The notes under the pieces were generated by a model. That model did not search any database and was not told where the DNA came from. It saw only the letters and a program-made list of their open reading frames with translations. A stretch of 64,000 nt of DNA, taken from positions 19,087,227 through 19,151,226 of the forward strand of contig NC_092096.1 of the NCBI RefSeq assembly GCF_045679555.1, written 5' to 3'. Source of the stretch: Salvelinus alpinus. Taxonomy: Eukaryota; Chordata; Actinopteri; Salmoniformes; Salmonidae. Positions 1,846 to 55,204 of this stretch are shown here, piece after piece; the stretch's first letter is position 1; every line of letters starts with the position of its first letter. Both the position numbers and the translations under genes were made by a program.

Positions 1846-3200
1846 GTTCCCAGGACGTCACAGAGAACCATTTCAGGACCCTTTCAGCATGTTCTCAGGA
1901 CGTCACAGAGAACCATTTCAGGACCCTTTCAGCATGTTCTCAGGACGTCACAGAGAACCATTTCAGGACCCTTTCAGCATGTTCTCAGGGCGTCACAGAG
2001 AACCATTTCAGGACCCTTTCGGCATGTTCTCAAGACGTCACAGAGAACCATTTCAGGACCCTTTCAGCATGTTCTCAGGACGTCACAGAGAACCATTTCA
2101 GGACCCTTTCAGCATGTTCTCAAGACGTCACAGAGAACCATTTCAGGACCCTTTCAGCATGTTCTCAGGACGTCACAGAGAACCATTTCAGGACCCTTTC
2201 AGCATGTTCTCAGGACGTCACAGAGAACCATTTCAGGACCCTTTCGGCATGTTCTCAAGACGTCACAGAGAACCATTTCAGGACCCTTTCGGCATGTTCT
2301 CAAGACGTCACAGAGAACCATTTCAGGACCCTTTCAGCATGTTCTCAGGACGTCACAGAGAACCATTTCAGGACCCTTTCAGCATGTTCTCAGGACGTCA
2401 CAGAGAACCATTTCAGGACCCTTTCAGCATGTTCTCAGGACGTCACAGAGAACCATTTCAGGATGTTCTCAAGACGTCATAGAGAACCATTTCAGGACCC
2501 TTTCAGCATGTTCTCAGGACGTCACAGAGAACCATTTCAGGACCCTTTCAGCATGTTCTCAAGACGTCACAGAGAACCATTTCAGGACCCTTTCAGCATG
2601 TTCTCAGGACGTCACAGAGAACCATTTCAGGACCCTTTTAGCATGTTCTCAGGACGTCACAGAGAACCATTTCAGGACCCCGGCTTTCGGCATGTTCTCA
2701 AGACGTCACAGAGAACCATTTCAGGACCCTTTCAGCATGTTCTCAAGACGTCACAGAGAACCATTTCAGGACCCTTTCAGCATGTTCTCAGGACGTCACA
2801 GAGAACCATTTCAGGACCCTTTCAGCATGTTCTCAGGACATCACAGAGAACTATTTCAGGACACTTTCAGCATGTTCTCAGGACGTCACAGAGAACCATT
2901 TCAGGACACTTTCAGCATGTTCTCAGGACGTCACAGAGAACCATTTCAGGACCCTTTCAGCATGTTCTCAGGACGTCACAGAGAACCATTTCAGGACACT
3001 TTCAGCATGTTCTCAGGACGTCACAGAGAACCATTTCAGGACACTTTCAGCATGTTCTCAGGACGTCACAGAGAACCATTTCAGGACCCTTTCAGCATGT
3101 TCTCAGGACGTCACAGAGAACCATTTCAGGACCCTTTCAGCATGTTCTCAGGACGTCACAGAGAACCATTTCAGGACCCTTTCAGCATGTTCTCAGGACG
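1846..3200. repeat. 45-bp minisatellite, about 30 units
   Basis: Tandem unit of 45 bases built around GGACGTCACAGAGAACC, TTTCAGGACCCTTTCAGC and ATGTTCTCA. The phase shifts at about 2461 (a short unit) and 2690 (an altered unit containing CCCCGGCTTTCGG). Variants such as CAGGACG/CAAGACG, TTTCAGC/TTTCGGC and GACCCTT/GACACTT are interspersed, and the GACACTT form is concentrated in the distal third. Because 45 is divisible by 3 and the unit lacks stops, long frames repeating MFSGRHREPFQDPFS appear. They have no sign of being a gene. Confidence 0.95.
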
Positions 3201-3528
3201 TTCATTTTTTAATAGTTCTTAGGACGTCCGTTATGGTCCCAAGGGAATGTTCTCTAAGTTCCTAGGACACCTCTGAGGACCATGTCAAGACCTTTTTAGG
3301 ACATTCATTTTAATAGTCCTCAATGTGTGATGGTACCATGGGAACATTATCAGGGGGAACATTTTCTAGTTCCCGGTTTGTCCTGGAAGACTTTATTAGG
3401 ACGTTGCATCATGGCCCCCTGGAGGTTTCGTCAAGTTCCCAGGACATCTTTAGGATGTTCTTGCAACAATGTGTCATGGTCCCCCGACGCTCGCCTGGAT
3501 GTTCTTGGAGGTATTGGTCCCAGATTGG
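3201..3528. repeat. Degenerate flank of the 45-bp array
   Basis: Several imperfect modules of the type TTCCTAGGACACCTCTGAGGACCA and GTTCCCAGGACATC continue the vocabulary of the array (GGAC, GTTCTC, CATGGTCCC) but no longer line up at 45 bases. This looks like an older, decayed part of the same array or its ancestral sequence. I see no gene here. Confidence 0.5.
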
Positions 3529-6065: not shown

Positions 6066-7396
6066 TCAGTAAGTTAGACTTTGAGTGAAGCTTTTCCCAA
6101 AGTCAACACAGCTAAGTGGTTTCTCTCCTGGTTTCTCTCCTGTGTGAGTCCGTTGATGGTTCCTTAGGTTCCACTTCTGATTGAAGCTTTTCCCACAGTC
6201 ATCACAGCTAAATGGTTTCTCTCCTGTGTGAGTAAGTGTATGCTTCTTTAGGGACCCCTTCTGATTGAAGCTTTTCCCACAGTCATCACAGCTAAATGGT
6301 TTCTCTCCTGTGTGAGTCAGTTTATGGTAACTTAGGTTCCCCTTCCAATAGAAGCTTTTCCCACAGTCATCACAGCTAAATGGTTTCTCTCCTGTGTGAG
6401 TCAGTTTATGTTTTCTTAGGTCCCCCTTCTGATAGAAGCTTTTCCCACAGTCATCACAGCTAAATGGTTTCTCTCCTGTGTGAGTCAGTTTATGGTAACT
6501 TAGGTTCCCCTTCTGATAGAAGCTTTTCCCACAGTCATCACAGCTAAATGGTTTCTCTCCTGTGTGAGTCAGTTTATGGTTTCTTAGGTTCCCCTTCTGA
6601 TTGAAGCTTTTCCCACAGTCACCACAGCTAAATGGCTTCTCTCCTGTGTGAATCTTCATGTGCTTGGACAGGTCTCCTTTGAGTTTGAAGGTCTTGCTAC
6701 AAACAGGGCAGGTGTAGGGTTTCCCACTGTGACAGAGTCGGACATGGGCCTTCAGTTTACAGGTGGAGTTGTAGCGTTTTCTGCAGAAGCGGCATTCACT
6801 GAGTCTCTTCTTGGAGAGAGTCACATGCCTCTGCAGGTCAACTTTCAGAGCAAACATTTCGCCACAGTCACGGCAGTGGTGAGTTTTTCTAGACGTGGTG
6901 CTGGGTTTGAAACAGTGCTCCACCACTGATGGGTTTGGATTCAATGATGAGCTGGGATCCAATGGTGGGCTGCTGTCAAGTCCTACTGGGTTTCTGCTTA
7001 CGCCTGAGCATTGGCTGACATTGTTCTGATTATCTGGAGGGTCACAGTGAATGCTGAGGCCCTTAAGGTGGGTCACAGTAACAAAAGGTATGAGATCCAC
7101 TTGTTTAGGGTCACTCTCTCTGTTCTCCACAGTCTGGGTTTGGGGAGAAGTGAAGGGCTGAAGTGGGTCCTCCTGATCACATTCACTTTTCACACAGGAA
7201 GGAGTGAATTTGATATCAGCCTCCAGCCCTTGAAGCTGCTCTTCCTCCTGACTGGTCCTGAGTTCCTCCTGTTCCTCTTTAATCTGTGGAAGCTCTGGGT
7301 TCTCCTGCCCCAGACTGGGGCTCCACTCCTGCTCACAGTGCTGCTGCTCAGGGAGAACCTCCTCTTCAGAGACAGTGAGAGAGAGCTGCAGGGAAT
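6066..7396 (-). CDS. ZNF1 exon 2: C2H2 zinc-finger protein
   Basis: Second exon of a two-exon gene; joined to exon 1 (10992-11157) it gives 498 aa. The acceptor is CTTTCCTCCAG at 7397 and the exon opens in phase 1 with DSLQLSLTVSEEEV. Residues 56 to about 225 are acidic and Ser/Pro-rich. A degenerate finger 1 (CRDC, second His lost) follows at about 230, then eight complete C2H2 fingers joined by TGEKPF linkers to about 488. Most carry QKG-N/S-L helices. The array is typical of a sequence-specific nuclear DNA-binding protein; the target is unknown. The last finger is broken: compared with ZNF3, one A is missing in the ACTCAAAAG run, so the frame ends TQSLTY, and the linker before it duplicates GEKP. 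The protein may still fold and bind. Confidence 0.85.
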
Positions 7397-8703
7397 CTGG
7401 AGGAAAGGAGAGGAGCAGAGGTTATCTATAGAGTCTTTAGACAGTCGTCACTAGCTGCCACAGCCATAAACCCTGCCTATTTCTAAAATGCATCTTCTTA
7501 AAGCAGAACTGAACTCAAGAACCAATTTCTCTCGTTGAAAACAGCATGTGACACCGATATGTCAGAAACATTTCTTCCTGTGCCAAAATGGTTGGTACAA
7601 TTTGGTCATAAAGTATCTTCCAAAACTGAGTTGTGAGATTTGAGTACAAGAGTTCGTCATGACTTAGAGGATTGGGTTTTGATTTCCACAATACCCTTTG
7701 AATTGTGTCGGGGACAACTGTAGCATTTTAGCTAAACCTTCCCCTAACTTTTACCCAATTAATTCTTAACCTGCCACGTAAATTCTCCCAAACTTTTACA
7801 TAAATTCACCTAACCTTTGTTGTTAGTTCTCCTAACCACCAATGTAAATTCTCCCCATAATTTTCCTTTGTTGTTATGGTGCAACAGGCAACATGGTCTC
7901 ATAAAAACACGTATAATACTATAGCTCCTCAAATACTAATGATAAGTTAGGTCATCCAATTCGTATGCTATTGTACAACCAGGTAAGACGTATGATACTA
8001 TAGCTTCTCTAATTCATATGATATTGTATGACGGCTATGACATGCATAATTTAACCTAATGTAATATATCATACTAAATGTAGGGAACGGATTGACTGAC
8101 CAAATCCTACAAATTGTTCTGAGACCAAGTTGCAGGTGCTTCGAAGCATGCGGAACATTTTTCAAAGCAGTCTGATCCTATACAAAAGTACAGCTGATGC
8201 TTGTATAAAATGTAAATTACCCCGTAATCAATGACATCCGAAGCTGTGTTTGATCACATGCTTTTTAGAAACGTGTTTTGCAAAATGTGAGATTACACCG
8301 ATTTTTTTTGAAAGTTACAATTGAACAGTAGCTCAGCAGGACGGGTTGGAAACCATCGAACACTGACGATAAGACAGGGTCGAATCACGGCAAAAGCACA
8401 ATATTTAGATTCATTTTATCTGCACATTGTGGTTCTAATAATATATTTCATTTAGTAGGCTACATGATAGGCTTTTGTCACACTCATATCCTCCTAAATA
8501 ACGGCATAGATTCAGTTTTAGAAGTTTTTTTGAATTGAGGCAATAAAGGGAAGTGGAATGTAAGATGCCTATCTCGTATTCTTACTATTTAGGTGTTCAA
8601 AGCCTGTGACTAACCACCGCGACTAACCACCGCGCCACAGAGTTTTGATTTACGTTTTTTTCAAATCAATTATCTGTACATCAAATGCTGCTGTTTATTT
8701 CTG

Positions 8704-10972: not shown

Positions 10973-10991
10973 AGAAGATCTACATACGAAC

Positions 10992-11157
10992 CTATTCTAC
11001 ATAGTTGTATCTCCGGTGTGATCCGCAGCAGTCTCCGTAGCCGATCATTCTCCTCGTGGTACTCCGCTACCGTTTCTTCAACTGCCCCAAAAATCTCCAC
11101 AGCTGCTGCAGTTAAACGCTCATTTAAAAACACACGAAACGACTGTAGTTTAGACAT
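10992..11157 (-). CDS. ZNF1 exon 1: fish ZNF N-terminal module
   Basis: The ATG at 11157 opens 55 codons plus one base, ending at donor ATAG|GTTCG. The protein begins MSKLQSFRVFLNERLTAAAV, continues with EIFGAVEETVAEY and ends RLLRITPEIQLCRI. It is highly charged and predicted to be mostly helical, with heptad-like Leu/Val/Ile spacing. From memory, many teleost zinc-finger proteins carry this kind of leader where mammals have KRAB; its partner is unknown to me. The promoter is no longer directly upstream: homology to the other 5' ends stops near 11225, where a LINE begins, and resumes at about 17931. Confidence 0.85.
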
Positions 11158-11498
11158 GTTTCAGTCGATAAATTGGGTATTCCGTTAGTATTGCTTCGTC
11201 CACGAGGGAAAATGGTTGTCACAAAGCTTCTTCTTCGGTGGGGTTTATCCGCGGTTGTCATCCAACGTTATGGTGCATTACCGCCACCTACTGTACTGGA
11301 GTGTGGGCCAGAAACAGGGACCAACTAAATCCTACCTGCCAGCCCCGTTGCTATTAAAAAAAATAACAAAATATTTGAGACAATATCTAATGACGTTCTA
11401 CTCAATATACTCTTTAAACGAATTTCCTGTATCCCCTGCTCCCTCATACTAGATCTCATCCTCTCGCTTTCCCTCCAATAATGTCCACAGTAGGCTAC

Positions 11499-11645
11499 CT
11501 GGGGCGGCAGGTGGTTAGAATGTTGGGCCAGAAACCGAAAGGGTGCTAGATCGAATCCCCGAGCTGACAAGGTAAAAATATGTGGCTGTCATTGTACATA
11601 AGAATTTGTTCTTAACTGACTTGCCTAGTTAAATAAAATAAAATA
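11499..11645 (+). mobile_element. tRNA-derived salmonid SINE
   Basis: The head GCGGCAGGTGGTTAGAATG leads to a pol III box-B-like AGATCGAATCCCCG. The shared tail GAATTTGTTCTTAACTGACT and TGCCTAGTTAAATAAAATAA follows. It is inserted in the 3' region of the LINE, so it is younger than that copy. Confidence 0.75.
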
Positions 11646-11912
11646 CATGCTCCACTGTCTCCTGGCAATACTCACATTTTCCTGTTGGATGCCTATCACG
11701 TGTAAGGTCTTATTCAACTGGCTGTGTCCCACCCTTAATCTTGTAAATATTGCCTCCTCTCTTCTGTCCCTTCCTGTCGTTCTCCCCTCCCCAACTTTCC
11801 TCTGTACTTGAAATAAAATGTCTGCCATTAGTATCTCTATTCCACTGCTCCTGCCATTTCTCCACCATCACTGTCCATGTCAGGCTTTTTGCCTCTGCCT
11901 TGCTCATTGAAA

Positions 11913-12353
11913 CTACCAATCAACATCCTCAATACTTCCTACTTGCTTAGCCAGTACATCAACTGCCTCGTTCCCCTCCACTCCCACATGAGCTGGGACC
12001 CATGTAAATATGATCTGTACACCCATTTGTTTACTCCTGCCATGGGTTTGTATCACCTCATAAAGCAGGTCTTGCCTGATATGTGATATAAAGGACTGGA
12101 GACTCCTTAGCACTGCACATGAATCAGAGAAAATAACTAATCTTTCTGGCTTAACTTCCTCCACCCACTGCAAGGTCAACAGTATGGCCATCGTCTCTGC
12201 CGTATATACAGCCAGATGATCTGTAATACGTTTCCTGAATCTCACCTCACATTCCTGCACTACAAGTACTGACCCAGTACGTCCTGTCCTTGGATATTTT
12301 GAACCATCTGTGTATATGGCCACAACATCCTGATATACACAGTATCCAGACAT
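11913..12353 (-). pseudogene. LINE RNase H domain (open remnant)
   Basis: 146 open codons with all four acidic RNase H positions visible: YTDGSK, AETMAI, SDSCAV and EAVDVLA. In an intact element this domain removes RNA from the RNA-DNA hybrid during insertion. Here it lacks the reverse transcriptase that should precede it, so the copy cannot move by itself. It differs from the copy at 119-472 at a handful of residues (for example KDPRTG against KYPRTG) and extends further. Confidence 0.8.
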
Positions 12354-12834
12354 CTCTTAACTATCGCCCTTTTCACCTCTGCCATGGTAAGTGGTGCATT
12401 CAATGCATCATAGCTGCCCCCACTAAAGCTGTTCTCACCCAGTTAGTCATACTATCCACTTCCCCTCTCAAATCCACCCGAGCCATCACCCACTCACAAC
12501 TCCTGATACTGATCCCACTTTGCACTTTCAAACCCCCCCCCCCCCCCCCCCCGCCTACTCCATCCACTGACACCTCCTCCTCCTCCCTCTGGCCTACTGT
12601 GCACACTATGGGGTAATGATCACTCCCTACTGTCGACTCCTCCCATACCTCCCACTCACAGATTCCTGCCATCGCACTAGATATCAAAGTGAGGTCCAAT
12701 GCAGAATCCTTCCCTGTCAATCCTAGTCCCTCAGCCATCATTCAGGCACACCAGATCTTTAACTTCTATCAGATGTTCCATCACTCGGCCATTTCCATCC
12801 ATCTGTTTCCCCCCCAGGCATTAAAATCCCCACA

Positions 12835-13965
12835 CCACATGACCTTAGTTCTATCCTGGCCCTGCACCCTCTCCACATGACCTTAGTTCTATCCTGGCCC
12901 TCCACATGACCTTAGTTCTATCCTGGCCCTCCACATGACCTTAGTTTATCCTGGCCCTCCACATGACCTTAGTTCTATCCTGGCCCTCCACATGACCTTA
13001 GTTCTATCCTGGCCCTCCACGTGACCTTAGTTCTATCCTGGCCCTCCACATGACCTTAGTTCTATCCTGGCCCTCCACATGACCTTAGTTCTATCCTGGC
13101 CCTCCACGTGACCTTAGTTCTATCCTGGCCCTCCAAGTGACCTTAGTTCTATCCTGGCCCTCCATGTGACCTTAGTTCTATCCAGGCCCTCCATGTGACC
13201 TTAGTTCTATCCTGGCCCTCCATGTGACCTTAGTTCTATCCAGGCCCTCCACATGACCTTAGTTCTATCCTGGCCCTCCACATGACCTTAGTTCTATCCT
13301 GGCCCTCCATGTGACCTTAGTTCTATCCAGGCCCTCCACATGACCTTAGTTCTATCCTGGCCCTCCACATGACCTTAGTTCTATCCTGGCCCTCCACATG
13401 ACCTTAGTTCTATCCTGGCCCTCCACGTGACCTTAGTTCTATCCTGGCCCTCCAAGTGACCTTAGTTCTATCCTGGCCCTCCATGTGACCTTAGCTCTAT
13501 CCAGGCCCTCCACATGACCTTAGTTCTATCCTGGCCCTCCACATGACCTTAGTTCTATCCTGGCCCTCCACGTGACCTTAGTTCTATCCTGGCCCTCCAA
13601 GTGACCTTAGTTCTATCCTGGCCCTCCATGTGACCTTAGTTCTATCCTGGCCCTCCACATGACCTTAGTTCTATCCTGGCCCTCCACGTGACCTTAGTTC
13701 TATCCTGGCCCTCCAAGTGACCTTAGTTCTATCCTGGCCCTCCATGTGACCTTAGTTCTATCCAGGCCCTCCATGTGACCTTAGTTCTATCCTGGCCCTC
13801 CATGTGACCTTAGTTCTATCCTGGCCCTCCATGTGACCTTAGTTCTATCCTGGCCCTCCATGTGACCTTAGTTCTATCCTGGCCCTCCACCCTCTCCACA
13901 TGACCTTAGTTCTATCCTGGCCCTCCACCCTCTCCATATGACCTTAGTTCTATCCTGGCCCTCCA
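12835..13965. repeat. 30-bp minisatellite derived from a LINE EN
   Basis: About 37 tandem units of CTCCACATGACCTTAGTTCT plus ATCCTGGCCC. The variable site after CCTCCA reads CATG, CGTG, AGTG or TGTG, giving higher-order patterns. Read on the minus strand in the LINE frame, the unit encodes EGQDRTKVMW. The frame is open from LEELEGQDRTKV on one side to MWCGDFNAWGG (the endonuclease GDFN motif) on the other. The array is therefore an in-frame amplification of ten endonuclease codons. Confidence 0.93.
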
Positions 13966-14085
13966 ACTCTTCTAGGTCCAATACCTGACACAGACTATAG
14001 TAGTTCACTACCACTATCATCCCTCCTCTCAACCACACCTCCACATATTCCTGTTCAACACCTTTACCTAGTTCACTACCACTAT
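13966..14085 (-). pseudogene. LINE endonuclease segment upstream of array
   Basis: On the minus strand the frame reads VEQEYVEVWLRGGMIVVVN then YYSLCQVLDLEELEGQD, a plausible AP-endonuclease strand leading directly into the repeat array and the GDFNAW motif. It ends at the LTR of the BEL/Pao fossil. Confidence 0.65.
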
Positions 14086-16762
14086 TGAAAGATTAGTGGA
14101 ATCTGTGTGGGTAGCTGGACAGGTAGGATGACTGACAGTGAAGGTGAACAGGTGGTCACGTGTCAGGTGACAGAAGAATGGATGAGACTGAGGCAGGAAT
14201 TCCTTTAACCATAAAGTGGTATATTTACTGAGTAGTCTGTGCTGCATAACAAAGGATACAAGATAACACGTATCCGATCAAATTCATAATCACAAACATC
14301 AAATCATAACAATCATTCATTATAACATAATTATGGAATTCAACAATCCAGTTCATTAAGAAGTCAATAGTAATCACCCGTGAGTCATTTAGGCTCTTAA
14401 CTATTTATCATAATCATGAAATAAATACAAACAGTGAATGGTCATTCAATCTATAATCCCCTTTAGTTTGATATCAAAGTCGATCAGTTAGCAAACAATG
14501 ACGTTTCTCATTTCACCCTTTCAATTGTCTTCATGTGTACATGTAATTAATTTAATTACATATTAACCATATCGATTGCATAATTGGCCTATGAGGATCC
14601 GTAGGGCCGCGATCATTGACAATTCACATTACACCATATGTTTGAAGCGTGCGCTCCAAGCCGCGCTCCGCGGTAATAACTATATACAATAACTGATGGC
14701 CCACTCTCCCGATCGCAACAGAGTCGGTGGACTTACGTGGATTCATGGACGCACAGAACTTCTCGAGCAGACGGAGTTAAGGAAGAGAAAGCAGCGAGAT
14801 CAAGCGATGGCGTTTTCCTCCTTTTATGTGGATGAGATCTGTCGGTCATTGCCACCTGACCTAATTAAAGCGCCCCTGGCCCAGCTGAGTAAGTGGCCAT
14901 GAATTAAAGGATTATTCCACCAACTCCATTGGCCTTTTCTACAGCCACCCTGGAAATTTGTTAAATTCCACACTCCTCAAAAAGGCTCATTGCTCCCCGT
15001 CCTCCGTCATCTCAGGGAGAGGAATTAGTCGAGCAACTGGCCTAATATATGTCCGGTTCTTTACCTGGATCTCCACTGATCTAACGCGACCATCGATCCC
15101 AGGCATGGTCTTAGTGATACGTCCCACCGGCCAGGAGGCTCGAGGCAGCTGAGGGTCCACCATCATTACTACTTGGCCAGTTTCCAGGCTGGCCATTTCT
15201 CTCCGCCATTTCCCTCTGTGCTGTAGGCTTGGTAGGTAATCCCGAATGAATCGGGCCCAGAAATGGTCAGCCAAGATCTGGCTGTGTCGCCACCGGCGTC
15301 TGCCAACGAGGTTGGTATCAGCATACATGGCTTGAGGAAGTGACGCATCTCGGCGTCCCATCAAGAGCATATTCGGTGTAACCGGATCGGGGTCAGCGAT
15401 ATCTGCAGAGAGATATCACAAGGGTTTGGAGTTCCATATCCCTTCCACCTCTATCAGGACGGTCCGCAAGACAGTTTCAGTGACACTTTGGTCCCCCAGG
15501 ACGACTCGTAAGGCCGTCTTTACAGATTTGATCTCTCGCTCCCATGTTCCTCCAAAATGAGGAGCTCCTGCAGGGTTAAATTTGAATAAGATTTGTTGGT
15601 CCATCAGCTGATCCTGGAGGCTGGGTTCCATGGCTTGGAAGGCTTCCTCCAACCTGGCTTCTCCTGCCTTGAAGTTTGTGCCTCTGTCAGCCAGGATCTC
15701 GTAGGGTTTCCCCCGTCGGGAGATAAACCGCCGTAGGGCCATGAGGAAGGCTTCAGTATCCAAACTCTCCAGTAGGTCCAGGTGGACACATCTAGTCGTC
15801 AAACACTTAAATAGAATGCCCCAGCGCTTTTCCACTCAACGACCTAGCTTGATTGTCAAGGGGCCAAAGCAATCTACTCCTGTTGACCAGAAGGGTGGTT
15901 TGAGGAGGCGCAAGCGTGCAGGGGGTAAATCTGCCATTTTGTGCACAGTGGCTCCGGCCCGCCATCTCTGACATTCTACGCAGGCGTATTGATGCTTACG
16001 AATGGCTCCTCGTCCTCCAAGTATCCAGTACTTCCGCCTCATCTCCCCATAGACCCTCTCTGGCCCTGGGTGGAGAAGCTTTTCATCATAACTCTTGATG
16101 AGGAGCCTGGTAAGAGGGTGTCTGGAGTCAAGGATAATTGGGTGGATAGCGTCGGGGTCCAAAACTTCTGCTCGGCACAGCCTCCCTCCGACTCTGATCA
16201 CTCCAAGGATTTGATCATATTCTGGGGCGAGAGAGAGAAGACGGCTCTCCTTAGCAACTTCCCTACCGGCTTTCAGAGCTTTTAGCTCCCCAGGGAAGCT
16301 AACTGCTTGTGCATGCTGGAGGAGTAGTGTCTTTGCCGCGAGGGAGGTGGCTATAGAAGCCACCCCATCTGATGTCTGGTTTGTGGCGGCGATCAGATCC
16401 GGCAGTGTTTGGGATTGTGCTAGGTCAGGGAGAGCTGTTGTTGGTTCCGTAGAGATGCTGTAACATTGGGTGGACTTCATTATTAACTCATGAGCTTCAA
16501 TTGGTTGCGGAGGAGCCGCACTCCTGGGGGCTTTCGGCCACTCGTTCTCTGGTTGGGACAAGAATGGTGGTCCCAAGCTCCAGCTATGGGGTTGAGCCAG
16601 TTCCTTAAGGGTTTTACCGCGAGTAACGTCATCAGCAGGATTGTTTATGCTATCAACATACCTCCAGTCCTGGACTTCTGTCAGGTCTTGGATTTCCGCA
16701 ATGCGAGTTCCGACAAACAACTTATACCTGCAGGACTCCGATGTGAGCCAGGTCAATACAGT
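14086..16762 (-). mobile_element. BEL/Pao LTR retrotransposon fossil, 5'-truncated
   Basis: Broken copy on the minus strand. Visible parts in order are the end of the RNase H/protease-RT polyprotein region (16762 down), an integrase with its zinc-binding and catalytic domains (about 16350-14990), and a terminal LTR of about 0.9 kb (14086 to about 14970, TG...CA ends). Gag, the protease and most of the reverse transcriptase are absent, as is the other LTR. There are several breaks. It is lodged inside the LINE block between LINE ORF1 and the LINE endonuclease, so it is younger than that LINE copy. The wording of the integrase places it in BEL/Pao rather than Gypsy. Confidence 0.8.
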
Positions 16763-17640
16763 GACCTCACACCAACTATATGCCACATTATGGTTTTATG
16801 TTACACTTTGGGTTTATACCATCCCCACATTTCCCATACTCATGCTCCCCTCCACACCTGGCACATCTCTCTTTACATGCTGTTGCCACATGCCCAAACC
16901 TCTGGCATTCAAAACATCTTAAAGGCTTCGGTACATATGCCCTCACATAATAACTCATATACCCTATGGTAACTTTAATTGGTAGTACCTAGTCCTTGAA
17001 GTGTAACAGAATAGACGGGCTATCTGCCCTAACTCCACCCCTTGTTGCTTGCAATCTATGAACATTCACTAGAACGCCTCCTGTCAAATTGTCCCTAACC
17101 TCTTGAATGCTAATACTCACAGGCCCCCCTGTTATCACCCCTTTAATCATTCCCTCTGCTCCACACCACCTTACACTTCCCTATTTGCTTCACCCCGAGA
17201 GCTTTCTCCCTCTGCGTCATGCCCTTACAGAACACCAACAAACTCCCATCTCTTAACACTTTACCATTGACAACTTCCCCAGTCAACTCTTTTATCACAG
17301 CCGTCAACCTTATCGGACTCATCGCCCCTATTCCCCCTTCCTCCTTGAACGTCAGAATCACTTTATGCTCCTCTTCACCTCCATGCTCCCCCTCGCGTCT
17401 TATCTTGCCCTTCCTCCCTGAACGTCAGAATTACTCCTCTTCCTCTGCACTTTCTACATCCAAACTGCCACTAGCGTTAGAAACTGTTGCTCTCCTCAAA
17501 CTTCCTTTTCTGCCTCCTCTCTACCTCCATAGACCTCTCGCTCCCCTTCAAACCCCTAACGTTACTCCCTTTCTCTCCCGCTTTCTTTTTCCTCTTTCTT
17601 AATCCCTCCTTATTTGTACCACTATGCTCCATCCTTTATT
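16763..17640 (-). pseudogene. LINE ORF1 remnant with CCHC knuckles
   Basis: On the minus strand, at about 16920-16800, there is a CCHC zinc knuckle (CFECQRFGHVATAC), then CARCGGEHEYGKC, and then the partial NHNVAYSWCEV. Together these form the knuckle array of an RNase H LINE ORF1 (RNA-binding, gag-like). Further upstream, 17361-17143 is open and reads LTAVIKELTGEV and DGSLLVFCKGM, typical of the region before the knuckles. The frame is interrupted and then cut by the BEL/Pao fossil. Confidence 0.75.
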
Positions 17641-17745
17641 TTGTACAATTTTATTTCACCTTTATTTAACCAGGTAGGCTAGTTGAGAACAAGTTCTCAT
17701 TTGCAACTGCGACCTGGCTAAGAAAAAGCAAAGCAGTGTGACACA
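17641..17745 (-). repeat. SINE-like tail fragment
   Basis: Read in reverse, it contains GAGAACTTGTTCTCAACTAG and ends CCTGGTTAAATAAAGGTG, a tail found in many fish short interspersed elements. Only about 100 bases remain, in the 5' part of the LINE block. Confidence 0.55.
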
Positions 17746-17930
17746 TACTTGCGTCACTTTCTTCTCCGTCACTATCTCCTACTATCTCTAACCGAGACAC
17801 AGCTCAGCTGTGCCGAACCGTCGCCACACAGAGTAAAGTTTGATTGTTTGTTTTTCCGCTAATTCTAACTGTTCACACAACGTCGCTTTGAAAACGCCGT
17901 TCCCAACGAGTTTTCGTTCATTGCTCTACC
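17746..17930 (-). other. 5' end of the LINE block
   Basis: No coding sequence is seen. This stretch lies between the LINE ORF1 region and the point (about 17931) where homology to the ZNF promoters resumes on the minus strand. It is probably LINE 5' UTR. Confidence 0.4.
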
Positions 17931-18132
17931 ACAAACAAAACAAAGCCTCCCTTTGTTTTACTTCCGTATTGTTTTGTTCTGTTTTTGTCAGCGGGTGGCA
18001 AGACCATAAACAGATCACAGCGGCCCCATGTGGATGGGGTTTTACTACAAATTACAGCCCAATGGTAACATTAGATTATTCAAATATGTTATACAAATCT
18101 CCAAACGTTGTGTTTTATTTATAGAGCTACAT
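17931..18132 (-). promoter_or_regulatory. Displaced ZNF1 promoter
   Basis: Read on the minus strand, this matches the block just upstream of ZNF2 to ZNF5: an ATTGG (inverted CCAAT) site, TAGTAAAACCCCATC, CGCTGTGAT, ACCCGCTGACAAAAACAGAA and GGAAGTAAAAC. In the other genes the block lies within 350 bases of the ATG. Here it is about 6.7 kb from the ZNF1 ATG because the LINE block intervenes. No TATA box is obvious. Promoter function is inferred from conservation and position. Confidence 0.55.
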
Positions 18133-18615
18133 CAGGAATAAGCAACTGGTGACCAGGCCTTTTGAAGGCCCTCAGATCAATTTCCGTAAAAAGTTCAAAC
18201 ATTTCCTGCAATTATGCACATTTTGCCAAAGGGTGAAGAGAAATGTTTGCAGTTTTCAATATATCATCTGAGTAAGACAAATTCAATGGGGGCCCGCTGT
18301 CCGGTAATTCGACCATGATTACTAAATTTAGATAGCTGGGCGCTAATCTCATTTACCAGTCTAAAAAATGTTAGCTGACATGGGCTAATTGAATGACTGT
18401 CAGTGGCTGCAATAACAAGAGAGACACTGCTGATGCACAACCACATTTTTATATTGCACCTTGTGTGTTTAACTACATTACGTTAGATATTATAACTCTC
18501 AACAACAAGTGAAGACCCCAACTGATTAAAAAAAATGTATTTACTCTTTATGGAAATTGATCGGAGAGCCTTCAAAATGGGAGCTGCAGGCCGGGTCACC
18601 AGTTAACCATCCCTG
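18133..18615. mobile_element. hAT-type MITE at promoter palindrome centre
   Basis: The ends are CAGGAATAAGCAACTGGTGA on the left and, reverse-complemented, CAGGGATGGTTAACTGGTGA on the right. The interior is non-coding. A copy at 54014-54505 has an 8-base target duplication with one mismatch (ATATAGTG/ATATAGCG), which is a hAT signature. Here the flanks are not a direct duplication. Instead the left flank is the reverse complement of the right flank (TATAAATAAAACA against TATAAAATAAAACA). Confidence 0.75.
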
Positions 18616-19089
18616 ATAAAGCACTATAAAATAAAACAAAACATTTGGGAGATTTGTATTACATATTTGAATAATTTAATGTTAGAATGAAACAATGAAG
18701 ACTTCTAAGCCCTTCTTGGAAAATACATGTAAAAATGAAATGCCTTTTATGGTGTCTGACGGAGTTAGTTGCATTTTCAGAAAATATTTAAGAATTATGT
18801 GATTCTTTGGTTAATATTAAGAAAAATATTTCTGAAAAAAATAATTTGTCGCGTCATTCAAGAATCCCTGAACTACAGTATCTATTCCCAGTATCATTGG
18901 TCTGTAGCGCGTAGTAACCCCCATCACCATGGGGGCGCTGTGGTTTGTTTCTGGGCTCGTTACCCGCTGATAAAAACAGAACAAAAGGGAAGTAAATCTG
19001 AGGGCGGGTTTGTTTCGTTTGTGTACACCATCCTTTCCTCGTGGATGTATACATACTAGCTGAATACCCAGTTCTCAGTCGACTGAAAC
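18616..19089 (+). promoter_or_regulatory. ZNF2 promoter and 5' UTR region
   Basis: Contains the block conserved in front of all the plus-strand ZNF genes: AATCCCTGAACTACAGTATC, CAGTATCATTGGTCTG (inverted CCAAT), ATCACCATGGGGGCGCTGTG and ACCCGCTGATAAAAACAGAA, then a variable GC-richer stretch and CAGTCGACTGAAAC just before the ATG. The transcription start cannot be fixed from sequence. Confidence 0.55.
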
Positions 19090-19255
19090 ATGTCTAAACT
19101 ACAGTCGTTTCGTGTGTTTTTAAATGAGCGTTTAACCGCGGCAGCTGTGGAGATTTTCGGGGCAGTTGAAGAAACGGTAGCCGAGTACCACGAGGAGAAT
19201 GATCGGCTACGGAGACTGCTGCGGATCACACCGGAGATAAAACTATGTAGAATAG
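19090..19255 (+). CDS. ZNF2 exon 1: fish ZNF N-terminal module
   Basis: ATG at 19090, 55 codons plus one base, donor ATAG|GTTCG. It matches ZNF1 exon 1 except for K instead of Q in TPEIKLC. It splices in phase 1 to exon 2 at 29351, rebuilding the codon for D in CRI-DSLQL. The intron is 10.1 kb. Confidence 0.85.
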
Positions 19256-19281
19256 GTTCGTATGTAGATCTTCTGATAGCT

Positions 19282-29147: not shown

Positions 29148-29350
29148 ATTTTGGCACAGGAAGAAATGTTTCTGACTTATATCAAAGTCACATGCTGTTT
29201 TCAACGAGAGAAATTGGTTCTTGAGTTCAGTTCTGCTTTAAGAAGATGCAATTTAGAAATAGTCGGGGTTTATGGCTGTGGCTGTGCCAGCTAGTGACGA
29301 CTGTCTAAAGGCTCTATGGATAACCTCTGCTCCTCTCTCCTTTCCTACAG
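29148..29350 (+). other. ZNF2 intron end and acceptor
   Basis: Matches the sequence before exon 2 in the other copies (GAGAGAAATTGGTTCTTGAG, TTTATGGCTGTGGCTGTGCC). The acceptor is TCCTTTCCTACAG. In ZNF2 alone the intron end happens to be open from an ATG at 29272 into exon 2. In ZNF3 to ZNF5 the same stretch has a stop or a shift, so I treat it as intron. Confidence 0.7.
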
Positions 29351-30653
<1,303 letters not shown>

Positions 30654-31179
30654 AAGACGAAAGAAAATTAGGACAAAGATATATTTAGTCACAAGATCAG
30701 GATGTGTACAATATTCTGAGTACACTCTCATAGACACAAATAGCTGGAATAAGTAGATTGAGTCAATGAGAGGATAGATTAACTGATGACTAAATTAGCA
30801 GTGCAGATGGCACTATTTTGTTAAGTGCAGAGATGTATTATAGGTATGAATGTGTAGGGGACTTCTGAAATTCTACAGATTTTGTGGCCCAGCAGGAAGA
30901 TCAGCATATCCCAAATCCAGAGGTTGTCAGTTCAAATCCCAGGTTGGGTCATATTGAAAAGTCTACTAAGTGAACATGTCAAATGTAATCATATTGTCAT
31001 TGAGTACCTTTTTTTTTTTACACCATTTTTGCTAAACAGTGTATCACTAACCTTAACAGAATACATGGTTCCAAATAAAATACAATTGTATTGGTCACAT
31101 ACACGTGTTTAGCAGAAGTTATTGTGGGTGTAGCGAAATGCTTGTGTTTCTAGCTCCAACAGTGCAGTAATATCTAACA
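30654..31179 (+). other. ZNF2 3' flank, shared among copies
   Basis: Matches the flanks of ZNF3 to ZNF5 and, in reverse, ZNF1. An AATAAAATACAATTG segment at about 31074 begins a repeat (TTGTATTGGTCACATACACG) absent from ZNF1. Up to 31179 this copy differs from the ZNF3/4 flanks at several sites; past 31180 the three become nearly identical. Confidence 0.6.
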
Positions 31180-31825
31180 ATTCACAGTAATACACACAAA
31201 CTTAAAAGTAAAAGAATGGAATTTAGGAATATATAAATATTAAGATGATCAATGTGGCATGGACTAAAATACAGTAGAATAGAGTACATTATATACATAT
31301 GAGATGAGTAAAGCAAAAATATGAAAACATTATTAAAGTGACTAGTGTTCCATTATGAAAGTGGCCAGTGAATTCAAGTCTATGTATATAGGGCAGCAGC
31401 CTCTAAGGTTCAGGGGTACGTAACCGGGTGGAAACCGGCCAAGAGAACATTCTCAAATATGTGGGTGTAAAACACTGTTAAAACCACTGTTTGTGTGTGG
31501 GGGTGGCTGTCCCTAGCATTGCCAAAAGACAAAGAGCTGTGACTGGATCAGTGGTTCACCCAGTCAGGGCCTTGATGGTTTTGGCAACAGTAACAAGGAG
31601 TGATGTGTAATACAACTAGGGTGCGGTGCCCTGGTAATGGGGGGGGGGGGGGTTTCTTTCTGTACATCAGGTGACGTCTCCAGGAACTAGACAAAAAACC
31701 TCTAGGGGACCATGACAGAACATCCTGACTACTTTAGGCGACCATTTTGTGACGTCCCGGGAGGTCCTAAAGACTCATTATTGTTTACAGGGAAGTTATG
31801 TTATTCATTAAAAAAGTTGCTTCTG

Positions 31826-32055
31826 ACCTGATAACATAATAACCACCTGATAACATAATAACCACCAGATAACAGAATAACCACCTGTTAACATAATAAC
31901 CACCTGATAACATAATAACCACCACCTGATAACATAATAACCAGATAACATAATAACCACCTGATAACATAACCACCAGATAACATAATAACCACCTGAT
32001 AACATAATAACCACCTGATAACATAATAACCACCTGACAACATAAAAACCACTGG
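31826..32055. repeat. 19-bp minisatellite downstream of ZNF2
   Basis: Units of GATAACATAATAACCACCT with CCAGATAAC and shorter variants, roughly twelve copies. Present at the same place after ZNF3 (38428-38688), ZNF4 (45068-45328) and ZNF5 (62400-62775, the longest). The reverse strand gives open frames rich in GGYYVIRWLLCY with no gene character. Confidence 0.9.
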
Positions 32056-32095
32056 AAAACATAATAAGATTGGTTAATAATCAAGTAAAGTGTTA

Positions 32096-32096
<1 letters not shown>

Positions 32097-32177
<81 letters not shown>
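32097..32177. repeat. (TG)n microsatellite
   Basis: About 40 uninterrupted TG units. The equivalent tracts are at about 38728-38804 and 45368-45468 (the longest), while after ZNF5 only a short tract remains (62817-62834). Lengths may vary between individuals. Confidence 0.95.
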
Positions 32178-32178
<1 letters not shown>

Positions 32179-32679
32179 CAGTGAGTTTGTGATTGGCAGT
32201 GGGTGGTGGTATGTGCATTAAATTCAGGGCAGTACTACATAAAGCATTGATTTTGTTATGTTATTACATTATTCATTAAAAAATGTGTTATTCACTGGTG
32301 AATGTAAACTTATTACATTTATTGGAAAAAGTTATTACGTTTACTGGCAAGTTTTTGCATTAACCAGGTTTATCACATAAAAACGTTAAGTTGTTACAAA
32401 TAGAAAATGTATTACATTTACCAGTGTTATTTCATTTACCGTTGTTACATTAATTACTGAACTTAATTCATTCAGTTTTATCATAATTATTGATAGAAAA
32501 GATGTGTCAGCGGTATTTTGCGACGGGGGAACACTGACTGGATCAAGAGTACCCCCCCCCCCCCAATTCTCCCAAGGTGCACCACGGAGCAAAGAGATGC
32601 TAGATAGTCTAGCTCAGGGATTGACCCTCTATAATATATATGTTTTAATTGTCAGGGTCTCAAGTTACTGTGACGAGTT

Positions 32680-32848
32680 AGAATAGTACAAAACACAAGA
32701 TGCAATTTTATAGTTTGGTTGTGCATCAGCAGTTTTTCTGTTATCTCTGTCACTGATAGTCACTCAATTAGCCCATGTCAGGTAACATTTGTTAGACTGG
32801 TAAATTAGTCTAGCGGCCAGCTATCTAAACTTGTAGTAATCATAGTCC
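32680..32848 (-). mobile_element. Reversed fragment of the promoter hAT MITE
   Basis: On the minus strand it reads as the interior of the MITE found at 18133-18615 (TAGATAGCTGGCCGCTA, CCAGTCTAACAAATGTTA, GATGCACAACCAAACTATA). Also at 39314-39482, 45960-46109 (cut) and 63330-63508. It lies next to a Tc1-A half. Confidence 0.65.
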
Positions 32849-33245
32849 CTGTTAGTGAGCATTTCTCCTTTGCCAAGATAATCCATCCGTCTGACAGGTG
32901 TGGCATATCAAGAAGCTAATTAAACAGCATCATTATTACACAGGTGCACTTTGTGCTGGGGACAATAAAAGGCCACTCTAAATTTTGCATTCTTGTCACA
33001 CAACACAATGCCACAGATGTCTCAAGTTTTGAGGGAGTGTGCAACCGGCATGCTGACTGCAGGAGAGTCCACCAGAGCTGTTGCCAAAGAATTTAATGTT
33101 CATTTCTCGACCGTAAGCTGCCTCCAATGTCGGATTAGAGAATTTGGCGGTACGTCCAACCCGGCCTCACAAGCGCAGACCACGTGTGACCACGCCAGCC
33201 CAGGACCTCCACATCCGGCCTTTTCCCCTATGGGATCGTTTGAGG
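32849..33245 (+). mobile_element. Tc1-A 5' half (deleted copy), unit A
   Basis: TCCCTGTTAGTGAGCATTTC, CTGACAGGTGTGGCATATCA and the start of the transposase, MPQMSQVLRECATGMLTAGE, then a helix-turn-helix (STRAVAKEFNVHFSTVSCL). It stops after PPHPAFSP, where flanking sequence is joined. The catalytic domain is absent. The duplicate is at 39483-39879 and the start survives at 63509-63660. Confidence 0.82.
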
Positions 33246-33473
33246 TGGTGGGGGGTGTTCAAATGAAGAATTTTCTGTATTTTACAAATATTTGTATGGA
33301 CTTATTTTTTGTGGCACAAATAAGTCTGTTTTTAGTAGTTGTTGTCAACTCTGTCACCGCTGGCTAACCCCCTTAAGATATATATTTTTTGGTCAGTATT
33401 GAGAAAATCTATTTGAATCACTGTTCTGGAACAAATGCTTAAACTATTGATGTATTTGGTGTACTAGATCTAA

Positions 33474-33632
33474 GGCAGTGGAGGCTGCTGAGGGGAGGAT
33501 GGCTCCTAATAATGTCAGGAATGGAGTGAGTGGAGTGGTATCAACCACATGGAAAACACATCTTTGTGTTTGATGCCATTCCGTTGAATCCATTCCAGCC
33601 ATTATTATGAGCCGTCCTCCCTTCAGCAGCAT
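33474..33632. mobile_element. Hairpin MITE, about 160 bp, unit A
   Basis: The left arm GGAGGCTGCTGAGGGGAGGA with TGGCTCCTAATAATG pairs with the right arm CATTATTATGAGCCGTCCTC with CCTTCAGCAGC. Non-coding. The duplicate is at 40108-40266. The ZNF5 copy (53523-53905) was later split by a SINE. Confidence 0.8.
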
Positions 33633-33639
33633 GCACTGA

Positions 33640-34222
33640 TCTAATGGATGTTAACATAATAAATGTTGTTTTAAGTTATGAATCTAGATAGACATGCCAA
33701 AATGCCCGCCATCCAGTAATTGGATCATGATTACTAAGTTTAGATATCTGGCCGTTAAACTAATTCACCAGTCTAAAAAGATGTTAGCTGATGTAAGATA
33801 ATTGAGTGACTGTCAGTGGCTGACATATCAAGAGAGAAACTGCTGATGCACAACCAAACTTCGATATTGTACCTTGTGTATTTTGCATTTTCAGAAAGAA
33901 ATGAAAGAATTAGGAGGTTATTTGGTCCATCAAAATTTATATTTTAAATGTTTTATATGAAGAAAAATATTTGTGTGAAGAAGGTAGAATTTGTCCCGTC
34001 TTTCAAGAATCCCTGAACTACAATATCTATTCCCAGTATCATTGGTCTGTAGCGTGTAGTAAAACCCCATCACCATGGGAACGCTGTGATTTGTTTCTGG
34101 GCTCCTTACCCGCTGACAAAAACAAAACAAAACAATACGGAAATAAAACGGTAGGGAGCGTTTGTTTGTGCTCGTCGACGAAGACATACATGTTGAATAC
34201 CCAATTCTCAGTCGACTGAAAC
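33640..34222 (+). promoter_or_regulatory. ZNF3 promoter and 5' UTR region
   Basis: Includes a shortened remnant of the hAT MITE (about 33715-33900), then the conserved block AATCCCTGAACTACAATATC, ATTGG, CCCCATCACCATGGGAACGC and ACCCGCTGACAAAAAC, and CAGTCGACTGAAACATG at the start codon. Identical to the ZNF4 region as far as I can see. Confidence 0.55.
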
Positions 34223-34388
34223 ATGTCTAAACTACAGTCGTTTCGTGTGTTTTTAAATGAGCGTTTAACCGCGGCAGCTGTGGAGATTTTCGGGGCAGTT
34301 GAAGAAACGGTAGCGGAGTACCGCGAGGAGAATGATCGGCTACGGAGACTGCTGCGGATCACACCGGAGATAAAACTATGTAGAATAG
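34223..34388 (+). CDS. ZNF3 exon 1: fish ZNF N-terminal module
   Basis: ATG at 34223, 55 codons plus one base, donor ATAG|GTTAG (the other ZNF genes except ZNF4 have GTTCG). EYREENDRL replaces EYHEENDRL of ZNF1/2. Splices in phase 1 to 35721 across a 1.3-kb intron. Confidence 0.85.
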
Positions 34389-34409
34389 GTTAGTATGTAG
34401 ATCTTCAGA

Positions 34410-34625
34410 TGGCTACGCTGAACAAAAATATTAACCCAACATTTAACAATTTCTAAGATGTTACCAAGTTACAGTTCATATAAGGAATTCAATCAATTGA
34501 AATAAATAGATTATGCCCTAATCTATGGATTTCACATTAACGGGAATGCAGATATGCATCTTGGTCACAGATACCTTAAAAGGTAGGGGGGTTGATCAGA
34601 AAACCAGTCAGTATCTGGTGTGACC
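34410..34625 (-). mobile_element. Tc1-A end remnant in ZNF3 intron
   Basis: CTGAACAAAAATATTAACCC, then the eroded terminal region up to CAGTATCTGGTGTGACCACC, where another repeat takes over. Same insertion as in the other four genes; the transposase part is gone. Duplicate at 41044-41259. Confidence 0.75.
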
Positions 34626-35275
34626 ACCAAATTTTATTTGTCACATGCACCGAATACAACAGGTGTAAACCTTACAGTGAAATGCTTACTTACAAGCCCT
34701 TAACCAACAATGCAGTAAAAAAATAATAATGAGAGCTGCAGTAAAATAACTGTAGAGAGGCTATAAACAGGGGGTACAGGTAGAGTCAATGTGCGGGGGC
34801 ACAGGTTAGTCGAGGTAATTGAGGTAATATGTACATGTAGCAGGAGTTATAGTGAGTATGCATAGATATCATGGTCCAAACACACTAAGACAAAGTGACA
34901 AAGCCTCTTCCACCTCAGGAGACTGAACATATTTTGCAATTGTCCTCAGATCCTCAAAAGGTTCTACAGCTGCACCATCGAGAGCATCCTGACTGGTTGC
35001 ATTACTGCCTGGTATGGCAACTGCTCGGGGCCAGGCTTCCTGCCATCCAGGACCTCTATACCAGGCGGTGTCAGAGGAAGGCCCTAAAAATTGTCAGACT
35101 CCAGCCAACCTAGTCATAGACTGTTCTCTCTGCTACCGCACGGCAAGCGGTACCAGAGCGCCAAGTCTAGGTCCAAAAGGCTTCTTAACAGCTTCTACCC
35201 CCAAGCCATGGCTCTGTTGGGGCGGTATGCAAATTGGAGTGGGCCTAGGGTTTCTGAGATGATGGTGTTGATGTG
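34626..35275 (+). mobile_element. Salmonid repeat plus L2-like RT 3' end
   Basis: 34626-34870 is the AATTTTATTTGTCACATGCA type of interspersed repeat. 34890-35275 reads, with interruptions, as the C-terminus of an L2-like reverse transcriptase: ESILTGCITAWYGNC, LPAIQDLYTRRCQRKA and LFSLLPHGKRYQSAKSRSKR. Both are dead. The duplicate in the ZNF4 intron is at 41260-41909. Confidence 0.7.
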
Positions 35276-35720
35276 AGCCATGACCAGCTATATAAACCAC
35301 GCCCCTCTGCAAACACGAGTTCTCCGATGTTTGTGACAATGCAGTACTTATTTAAAGAGAAGAGAATATTATGTTAGCACACAATAAAATTAAGTGATGT
35401 CACCTTGTCCCCTTAATAATATATCCAAGTGTTTGACATGGGGGAGGGAACCAGTAACTTTATGATCAAACTTTATCAATGTAGAAGCAACAGTCATTTT
35501 TCATACTTTGGTCATACTCCAATTTCATGAAAAACATGATTTTGACTGTTCATGACCTTTAACTGTTCATGTGCTCTGGCAGAGTTCCCGGTCACGTGCT
35601 GTTTTCAACGAGAGAATTGGTTCTTGAGTTCAGTTCAGTTTATGGCTGTGGCTGTGCCAGCTAGTGACGACTGTCTAAAGGCTCTATAGATAACCTCTGC
35701 TCCTCTCTCCTTTCCTCCAG

Positions 35721-37267
35721 ACTCCCTGCAGCTCTCTCTCGCTGTCTCTGAAGAGGAGGTTCTCCCTGATCAGCAGCACTGTGCGCAGGAGTGGAGCCCC
35801 AGTCTGGGGCAGGAGAACCCAGAGCTTCCACAGATTAAAGAGGAACAGGAGGAACTCAGGACCAGTCAGGAAGAAGAGCAGCTTCAAGGGCTGGAGGCTG
35901 ATAATAAATTCACTCCTTCCTGTGTGAAAAGTGAATGTGATCAGGAGGACCCACTTCAGCCCTTCACTTCTCCCCAAACCCAGACTGTGGAGAACAGCGA
36001 GAGTGACCCTAAACAAGTGGATCTCACACCTTTTGTTACTGTGACCCACGTTAAGGGTCTCTACATTCCCTGTGACCCTCCAGATAATCACAACGGTGCC
36101 TCCAGCCAGCTCTCAGCCGTAAGCAGTGACCCGGTAGGACTTAACAGCAGCCCACCAATGGATCCCAACTCATCATTTGATCCCAGCTCATCATTGAATC
36201 CAAACCCATCAATGGGTGAACACCGTTTTAAACCCAGCACCACGTCCAGAAAAACTCACCACTGTGGTGAAATGTTTGCTCTGAAACCTGACCTGCAGAG
36301 GCATGTGACTCTCTCCAAGAAGAGACTCAGTGAATGCCGTTTCTGCAGAAAACGCTACAACTCCACCTGTAAACTGAAGGCCCATGTCAGCCTCTGTCAC
36401 AGTGGGAAACCCTACACCTGCCCTGTTTGTAGCAAGACCTTCAAACTCAAAGGAGATCTGTCCAAGCACATGAGGATTCACACAGGGGAGAAACAATTTA
36501 AGTGTGGCGACTGTGGCAAAAGCTTCCATTGCAAGCAACACTTAACAGTGCACATGGTGACTCACACAGGAGAGAAACCATTTAGCTGTGATGCTTGTGG
36601 GAAAAGCTTCAGTCAGAAAGGGTCCCTAAAGAACCATACACTAACTCACACAGGAGAGAAACCATTTAGCTGTGATGACTGTGGGAAAAGCTTCTGTCAC
36701 AAGTGGTCCCTAAAGAAGCATACACTGACTCACAAAGGAGAGAAGCCATTTAGCTGTGATGCTTGTGGGAAAAGCTTCAGTCACAAGGGGTCCCTAAAGA
36801 AGCATACACTAACTCACACAGGAGAGAAACCATTTAGCTGTGATGACTGTGAGAAAAGCTTCTGTCACAAGTGGTCCCTAAAGAAGCATACACTGACTCA
36901 CACAGGAGAGAAACCATTTAGCTGTGATGACTGTGGGAAAAGCTTCAATCAGAAGGGGAGCCTAAGAAACCATCAACTGACTCACACAGGAGAGAAACTA
37001 TTTAGCTGTGATGACTGTGGGAAAAGCTTCTATCAGAAGGGGAACCTAAGAAACCATCAACTGACTCACACAGAAGAGAAACCATTTAGCTGTGATGACT
37101 GTGGGAAAAGCTTCTGTCACAAGGGGTCCCTAAAGAAGCATCAACTGACTCACACAGAAGAGAAACCATTTAGCTGTGATGACTGTGGGAAAAGCTTCAC
37201 TCAAAAGTCTAATTTACTGACGCATGTGAAAAACATCCACAAAGGTGGCAAACAGGAGGAAAACTGA
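35721..37267 (+). CDS. ZNF3 exon 2: C2H2 zinc-finger protein
   Basis: With exon 1 it makes 570 aa. The acceptor is CTTTCCTCCAG at 35720. Residues 56 to about 235 are acidic and Ser/Pro-rich and contain DPNSSFDPSSSLNPNPS. Finger 1 is a stump (HHCGEMFALKPDLQRH) because nine bases carrying the first CxxC are missing compared with ZNF1/2. Eleven complete C2H2 fingers follow, residues about 261-560, with linkers mostly TGEKPF but KGEKPF once and TEEKPF twice. The array ends [20 protein letters not shown]. Helices repeat a few types (QKG-S-LKK, HKW-S-LKK, QKG-N-LRN), so it may read a repetitive site. Probably nuclear and DNA-binding. Confidence 0.9.
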
Positions 37268-38722: not shown

Positions 38723-38807
<85 letters not shown>

Positions 38808-39482
38808 CAGTGAGTTTGTGATTGGCAGTGGGTGGTGGTATGTGCATTAAATTCAGGGCAGTACTACATAAAGCATTGATTTTGTTATGTTATTACATTA
38901 TTCATTAAAAAATGTGTTATTCACTGGTGAATGTAAACTTATTACATTTATTGGAAAAAGTTATTACGTTTACTGGCAAGTTTTTGCATTAACCAGGTTT
39001 ATCACATAAAAACGTTAAGTTGTTACAAATAGAAAATGTATTACATTTACCAGTGTTATTTCATTTACCGTTGTTACATTAATTACTGAACTTAATTCAT
39101 TCAGTTTTATCATAATTATTGATAGAAAAGATGTGTCAGCGGTATTTTGCGACGGGGGAACACTGACTGGATCAAGAGTACCCCCCCCCCCCCCCCCCAA
39201 TTCTCCCAAGGTGCACCACGGAGCAAAGAGATGCTAGATAGTCTAGCTCAGGGATTGACCCTCTATAATATATATGTTTTAATTGTCAGGGTCTCAAGTT
39301 ACTGTGACGAGTTAGAATAGTACAAAACACAAGATGCAATTTTATAGTTTGGTTGTGCATCAGCAGTTTTTCTGTTATCTCTGTCACTGATAGTCACTCA
39401 ATTAGCCCATGACAGGTAACATTTGTTAGACTGGTAAATTAGTCTAGCGGCCAGCTATCTAAACTTGTAGTAATCATAGTCC

Positions 39483-39879: not shown

Positions 39880-40107
39880 TGGTGGGGGGTGTTCAAATGA
39901 AGAATTTTCTGTATTTTACAAATATTTGTATGGACTTATTTTTTGTGGCACAAATAAGTCTGTTTTTAGTAGTTGTTGTCAACTCTGTCACCGCTGGCTA
40001 ACCCCCTTAAGATATATATTTTTTGGTCAGTATTGAGAAAATCTATTTGAATCACTGTTCTGGAACAAATGCTTAAACTATTGATGTATTTGGTGTACTA
40101 GATCTAA

Positions 40108-40266: not shown

Positions 40267-40273
40267 GCACTGA

Positions 40274-44423: not shown

Positions 44424-46109
<1,686 letters not shown>

Positions 46110-55186: not shown

Positions 55187-55204
55187 GTTCGTATGTAGAT
55201 CTAC

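Follow-up and report, generated by a model that had tools for sequence, protein, structure and literature searches.

We found that the zinc-finger genes ZNF1 and ZNF2 stand head-to-head behind mirror-image promoters centred on a small transposon, a hAT MITE. The locus looks like the scar of an old inversion or break inside the MITE, not the product of transposition at its edges. Our preferred reading, to which we give a probability of roughly 0.6, is that two separate MITE-bearing paralogues were fused head-to-head by an illegitimate inversion inside their MITEs; the confidence figures for the competing readings overlap and sum to more than 1.

The window, by which we mean the whole 64,000-nucleotide stretch that was analysed, holds C2H2 zinc-finger genes in one array, with five exon 1 copies and five finger ORFs (Table 1). 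Both PF00096 and PF13465 were present in each of the four finger ORFs scanned against Pfam (6066-7421, 29263-30519, 35690-37267 and 59845-61254). Order and strand suggest which exon 1 copy belongs to which finger ORF. The ZNF3 and ZNF4 units are 99.2% identical across 6742 aligned bases; they form two tandem units of ~6.6 kb at 30586-43934, which represent either a duplication of very recent date or a unit doubled in assembly. Separately, positions 1846-3201 hold an array of ~30 copies of a 45-base unit that is open in several reading frames.

Table 1. Coordinates of the genes, promoters and MITE sequences in the window
Feature	Coordinates	Strand	Basis or remark
Finger ORF	6066-7421	-	ORF list, Pfam-scanned
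Finger ORF	29263-30519	+	ORF list, Pfam-scanned
Finger ORF	35690-37267	+	ORF list, Pfam-scanned
Finger ORF	42324-43901	+	ORF list only, outside Pfam scan
Finger ORF	59845-61254	+	ORF list, Pfam-scanned
ZNF1 promoter and exon 1 copy	18067-17930 with 11225-10986	-	Sequence matching
ZNF2 promoter and exon 1 copy	18892-19260	+	Sequence matching
ZNF3 promoter and exon 1 copy	~34037-34393	+	Sequence matching
ZNF4 promoter and exon 1 copy	40671-41027	+	Sequence matching
ZNF5 promoter and exon 1 copy	54819-55191	+	Sequence matching
ZNF1 exon 1 region	10986-11225	-	218/239 identical to ZNF2 exon 1 region
Block with retroelement pieces and minisatellite, 6.7 kb	11226-17929	-	Homology resumes at 17930
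ZNF1 promoter core, outer left arm	17930-18067	-	107/132 to 18892-19023; 110/134 to ZNF3 and 110/135 to ZNF5 promoters
ZNF1 promoter-proximal arm, ending at reversed right-hand flank of ancestral MITE insertion	18066-18132	-	60/67 to 18616-18684
Probable remnant of second MITE copy, 62 bases of right end reversed	18133-18194	-	52/62 to the sister's right end, 29/61 to its left end
Rearrangement junction inside MITE	18190-18202	.	Two-part switch 18198-18202; right-end similarity clear to ~18194
MITE body and right end of ZNF2 promoter, true left end missing	18199-18615	+	75.4% aligned to 54142-54505
ZNF2 promoter, right arm	18616-19023	+	Sequence matching
ZNF2 first coding exon, ATG to likely splice site	19090-19255	+	Read by eye; five exon 1 copies aligned
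MITE pieces without either end, ZNF3 and ZNF4	33704-33883 and 40338-40517		Between sister-type left flank and promoter
Sister MITE, ZNF5 promoter	54014-54505	+	Two different ends; 7/8 direct flanks

A first-pass annotation had described the flanks of the element at 18133-18615 as reverse complements of one another up to both edges, with the inverted similarity extending outward into the promoter block, and the alignments agreed on both points. The inner arms (18066-18132, reverse complemented, against 18616-18684) are identical at 60 of 67 positions, and the outer arms, which form the promoter core (17930-18067, reverse complemented, against 18892-19023), at 107 of 132. The flanks alone gave an inverted local score of 74; in 1000 dinucleotide-preserving shuffles the score averaged 13.6 and never exceeded 21. 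The right arm also has 207 bases (18685-18891) that the left arm lacks. The same annotation had held the inverted duplication to be exactly bounded by the hAT element. This proved incorrect, as the inverted copy continues ~62 bases into the element (52/62) and then fades (31/55 in the next stretch); by zone, inverted similarity is 89.6% just outside the MITE edge, 83.9% inside it and 56.4% past the junction. The mirror image passes the MITE edge because the left terminus of this 18 kb copy is a reversed copy of its right terminus.

The comparison of the 18 kb ends was made against the one element with both ends, the sister MITE at 54014-54505. Its flanks, ATATAGTG and ATATAGCG, form a direct 8-base target duplication matching at 7 of 8 positions, whereas the flanks of the 18 kb copy match at 2 of 8 in direct and 5 of 8 in inverted orientation; the annotated difference in direct flanks between the two copies is thus real. 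The 18 kb copy would have no target duplication because its left end was lost. The sequence CAGGGATGGNCAACT, which we take to be a hAT-type terminus, is present without a mismatch at each end of the sister, although a search for it allowing 3 mismatches was overall not above chance (4 found, 6.59 expected). Past the terminal ~15 bases the sister's ends differ, with a left-to-right score of 13 against 42 for the 18 kb left end and the sister's right end, and we rejected the idea that its two ends are alike beyond the terminal bases. The two elements are 483 (18 kb) and 492 bases (sister) long and contain no listed ORF of at least 150 amino acids, a weak test given that this cut-off is nearly the whole element. 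Near the sister's left end there is an internal tandem duplication (54081-54206) that the 18 kb copy lacks, and the window yielded no further copy of the true left end (54014-54080).

Positions 18133-18194 match the sister's right end, reversed, at 52 of 62 positions and its left end at 29 of 61, and on the latter count we rejected an ordinary left terminal repeat. With the terminal 15 bases removed, this segment scored 34 against the sister's right end (maximum of 14 in 1000 shuffles) and 6 against the left end (shuffle mean of 6.7, maximum of 13). Judged by sequence, this element at 18 kb carries two right ends and lacks a left one. A two-part alignment placed the best switch at 18198-18202 with a score of 83, compared with a maximum of 47.5 in 200 mononucleotide-shuffled controls; unswitched alignments scored 38 (all right), 34.5 (left, free truncation) and -9.5 (whole left end). 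By eye there is a short match, AAAGT, at 18190-18194, so the exact junction base is ambiguous. Taken as one piece, 18133-18270 scored 87 against the sister's left side and 74 against its right side reversed. The former score is higher because the second half is MITE body, and such split scoring is expected of a two-part sequence. We rejected the insertion of an independent second MITE into the first, since the sequence outside is promoter. Additionally, the right MITE end of the 18 kb copy carries a private insertion of 11 bases.

The sister has a target duplication, and its left flank recurs upstream of ZNF3 and ZNF4 (a 109-base match, 78%); together these show that the nonpalindromic state is ancestral. 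The right-hand MITE junction is common to ZNF1, ZNF2 and ZNF5, and a MITE piece persists at the equivalent position in ZNF3 and ZNF4; the insertion position of these pieces agrees with the sister's, not to the base, as both their ends are missing. The left arm starts with the reversed right-hand flank, and therefore ZNF1 derives from a gene with a MITE at the same site; when the 8 MITE-adjoining bases of the ZNF1 arm are reversed, 6 of them agree with the right target copy of the sister. Reversed MITE pieces also lie downstream of ZNF2, ZNF3, ZNF4 and ZNF5 (32633-32847, 39267-39481, 45927-46109 and 63291-63506, respectively). Outside this genome, the MITE motif had no match in a viral contig collection. 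An exact 20-base match in a cyanobacterial contig was taken as coincidence, as 17930-19260 matches 8000 bases of that contig at the same 20 only (E <0.3).

How closely ZNF1 and ZNF2 are related bears on how the pair arose. In the promoter core, ZNF1 is 81.1% identical to ZNF2, 82.1% to ZNF3 and 81.5% to ZNF5, and the others are 87.5% (ZNF2-ZNF3), 87.6% (ZNF2-ZNF5) and 88.1% (ZNF3-ZNF5) identical to each other. The corresponding values for exon 1 are 91.2, 92.7 and 92.1% for ZNF1 against ZNF2, ZNF3 and ZNF5 and 95.1, 89.7 and 92.4% among the others; those for the finger exons are 94.2, 93.1 and 92.2% and 93.7, 93.5 and 93.4%. Informative sites over four segments numbered 10 for ZNF1 with ZNF2, 6 for ZNF1 with ZNF3 and 12 for ZNF1 with ZNF5. 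Gapped columns were skipped in this count, 11 multistate columns were entered as "other," and ZNF4 was left out because it is identical to ZNF3 in the aligned core, exon 1 and finger segments (the intron segment is not among them). From these comparisons, ZNF1 and ZNF2 do not appear specially related in the promoter core or the informative sites, and the finger exons lean slightly to the pair. The paralogue picture appears star-like, with ZNF1 and ZNF2 as ordinary paralogues of similar age, so that the pair was either brought together or made around the time of array expansion. Setting the divergence of the arms against that of other ZNF promoters, as the first-pass annotation had proposed, did not single out the pair: the ZNF1 core is no closer to that of ZNF2 than to those of ZNF3 and ZNF5. 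Of the proposal that the event produced the divergent gene pair, the head-to-head order does come from the junction, but the core identities and site counts do not support one promoter having been copied from the other.

Taken together, these data are consistent with the following series of events. An ancestral zinc-finger gene would have received a single MITE insertion in its promoter, and the element would have travelled with the gene as it multiplied. ZNF1 would later have been inverted against ZNF2 through the joining of two broken MITEs at noncorresponding places: ZNF1's MITE would have contributed its last ~62 bases in reverse, fused a short way inward from the left end of ZNF2's MITE. 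A single inversion between two tandem genes, with both breakpoints falling in their MITEs, would be the most economical route, and it would yield a head-to-head gene pair around an imperfect palindrome. The comparisons above demonstrate both the anatomy and which state came first; for the joining mechanism we infer repair by end joining or by a template switch over a handful of matching bases. Of the two origins first suggested, aberrant transposition or a break at the element, a break fits, whereas transposition at the edges does not, given an internal junction (switch at 18198-18202) and two right ends.

The possibility that comes nearest, though we consider it clearly the less probable, is a fold-back by hairpin or template switch, in which a strand broken or stalled in ZNF2's MITE turned back and copied the ZNF2 promoter and gene in reverse to give ZNF1. 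A turn close to the inner boundary of the right end would give two right ends round a ~350-base spacer, the AAAGT seen by eye would be the short match at the turn, and foldback inversions via single-strand hairpins are described in yeast (PMC7467729). However, a fold-back predicts that ZNF1 and ZNF2 are each other's closest relatives. The finger exons are marginally closest for this pair (94.2%), but the pair gains no advantage from the informative sites (10 of 28), and its promoter core identity is 81.1% against 87.5 to 88.1% among the other genes. We prefer inversion to fold-back because of these promoter distances: ZNF1's 81.1 to 82.1% is as expected if it was already a separate paralogue. 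Several observations count against the inversion as well. The finger exons place ZNF1 marginally nearest ZNF2 (94.2% versus 93.1 and 92.2%); ZNF1 is no outgroup in exon 1, where ZNF2-ZNF5 identity (89.7%) is below that of ZNF1-ZNF2 (91.2%); the site patterns are nearly tied (10, 6 and 12), so that a fold-back may have taken place while the array expanded; and the reciprocal junction that a single inversion predicts was not found in the window, so it would lie outside or have been lost. Furthermore, the divergence of the ZNF1 promoter may come from faster evolution alone.

A route in which inverted MITE copies first recombined by ectopic homologous crossover and the spacer separating two facing MITEs was then deleted overlaps with the preferred inversion and is on its own terms unlikely. 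In its favour, reverse-oriented MITE pieces lie downstream of ZNF2 to ZNF5, and hAT MITEs at Atlantic cod inversion breakpoints are attributed to ectopic recombination (PMC12368964). However, a homologous crossover by itself leaves one left and one right end; two right ends require a second event, and within the window the MITE query detected none downstream of ZNF1. An assembly artefact, with paralogues or haplotypes misjoined in reverse, seems improbable. The array is repeat rich, and the 99.2% identity of the ZNF3 and ZNF4 units makes misassembly nearby possible, but the mirror is no plain reverse copy of a single sequence, because the arms are 10 to 19% divergent and private insertions are present, one of 11 bases at the right end of the MITE and another of 207 in the right arm. 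Transposition cuts at element termini, and a junction inside the element, with the switch at ~18190-18202, therefore argues against it. Alternative hAT transposition (reversed ends or sister chromatid) using the ends of two elements is accordingly the least credible reading: two MITE copies did take part, and Ac/Ds elements are described in PMC8225341 as yielding inversions and, in sister-chromatid events, inverted duplications, but the maize inversion junctions described there lie precisely at termini with 8-base duplications, the one here lies ~60 bases within the element, and the outer flank on either side is a form of the ancestral right-hand one, so that alternative transposition is contradicted as the direct source and survives only with a later deletion of the true left end.

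The ZNF1 promoter core is separated from ZNF1 exon 1 by the block at 11226-17929, which has TTTGTG at both sides. It contains an Integrase_H2C2 domain (PF17921, Pfam) in the ORF at 15836-16795 and a 29-base minisatellite array at 12871-13890. By eye, it also holds an RNase-H-like ORF (11913-12356) and further retroelement-like ORFs. Positions 1-779 and 11882-12676 are the same piece twice, with 96% identity, probably from a retroelement. This retroelement-bearing block would have been placed between the ZNF1 promoter and exon 1, now 6.7 kb apart, at some point in time. The common core suggests two divergent promoters, of which the putative ZNF1 promoter now stands apart from its exon 1.

A transposon can seem to mark the exact bounds of a rearrangement when one of its own ends belongs to the inverted copy, and comparing both ends with an intact sister tells true bounding from this case. 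We also put forward, as a speculation with little probability behind it at present, that promoter-borne MITEs in such an array are recurrent fragile sites, with every gene copy carrying a break-prone element at an equivalent promoter position, and that illegitimate joining at them flips genes into head-to-head pairs with one regulatory block. If MITEs in duplicated promoters do often serve as break points, this would account in part for genes switching strand within zinc-finger clusters; one junction is insufficient to show that. Among the papers listed for salmon zinc-finger genes, hAT elements, MITEs and tandem arrays, no title concerned this locus.

The array resembles tandem C2H2 zinc-finger clusters in its five copies of exon 1 and finger ORF and in the very similar pair of ZNF3 and ZNF4. 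Unlike in those clusters, one member is inverted against its neighbour and the promoter MITEs are fused. As in yeast hairpin foldback inversions (PMC7467729), there is an inverted duplication round a spacer; such a model predicts sister arms, whereas the promoter arms here are no closer than those of other paralogues. The maize p1/p2 system (PMC8225341) likewise combines hAT elements (Ac/Ds), paralogous genes and a changed gene order. Its junctions are at termini with 8-base target duplications; here, the junction is internal and no duplication is seen at the one junction. A further likeness is in a fish, the Atlantic cod, for which PMC12368964 describes the hAT-derived MITE gadMor-hAT-1784 at inversion breakpoints, ascribed to ectopic recombination, so that in both cases copies of a hAT-derived MITE lie at an inversion junction. 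The cod copies are tandem MITE arrays with ~600-base terminal repeats at large chromosomal inversions, in contrast to the one short junction here, which joins noncorresponding MITE positions between two paralogous promoters. The locus is thus a small, old example of a hAT MITE at an inversion junction, joined at positions that do not correspond.
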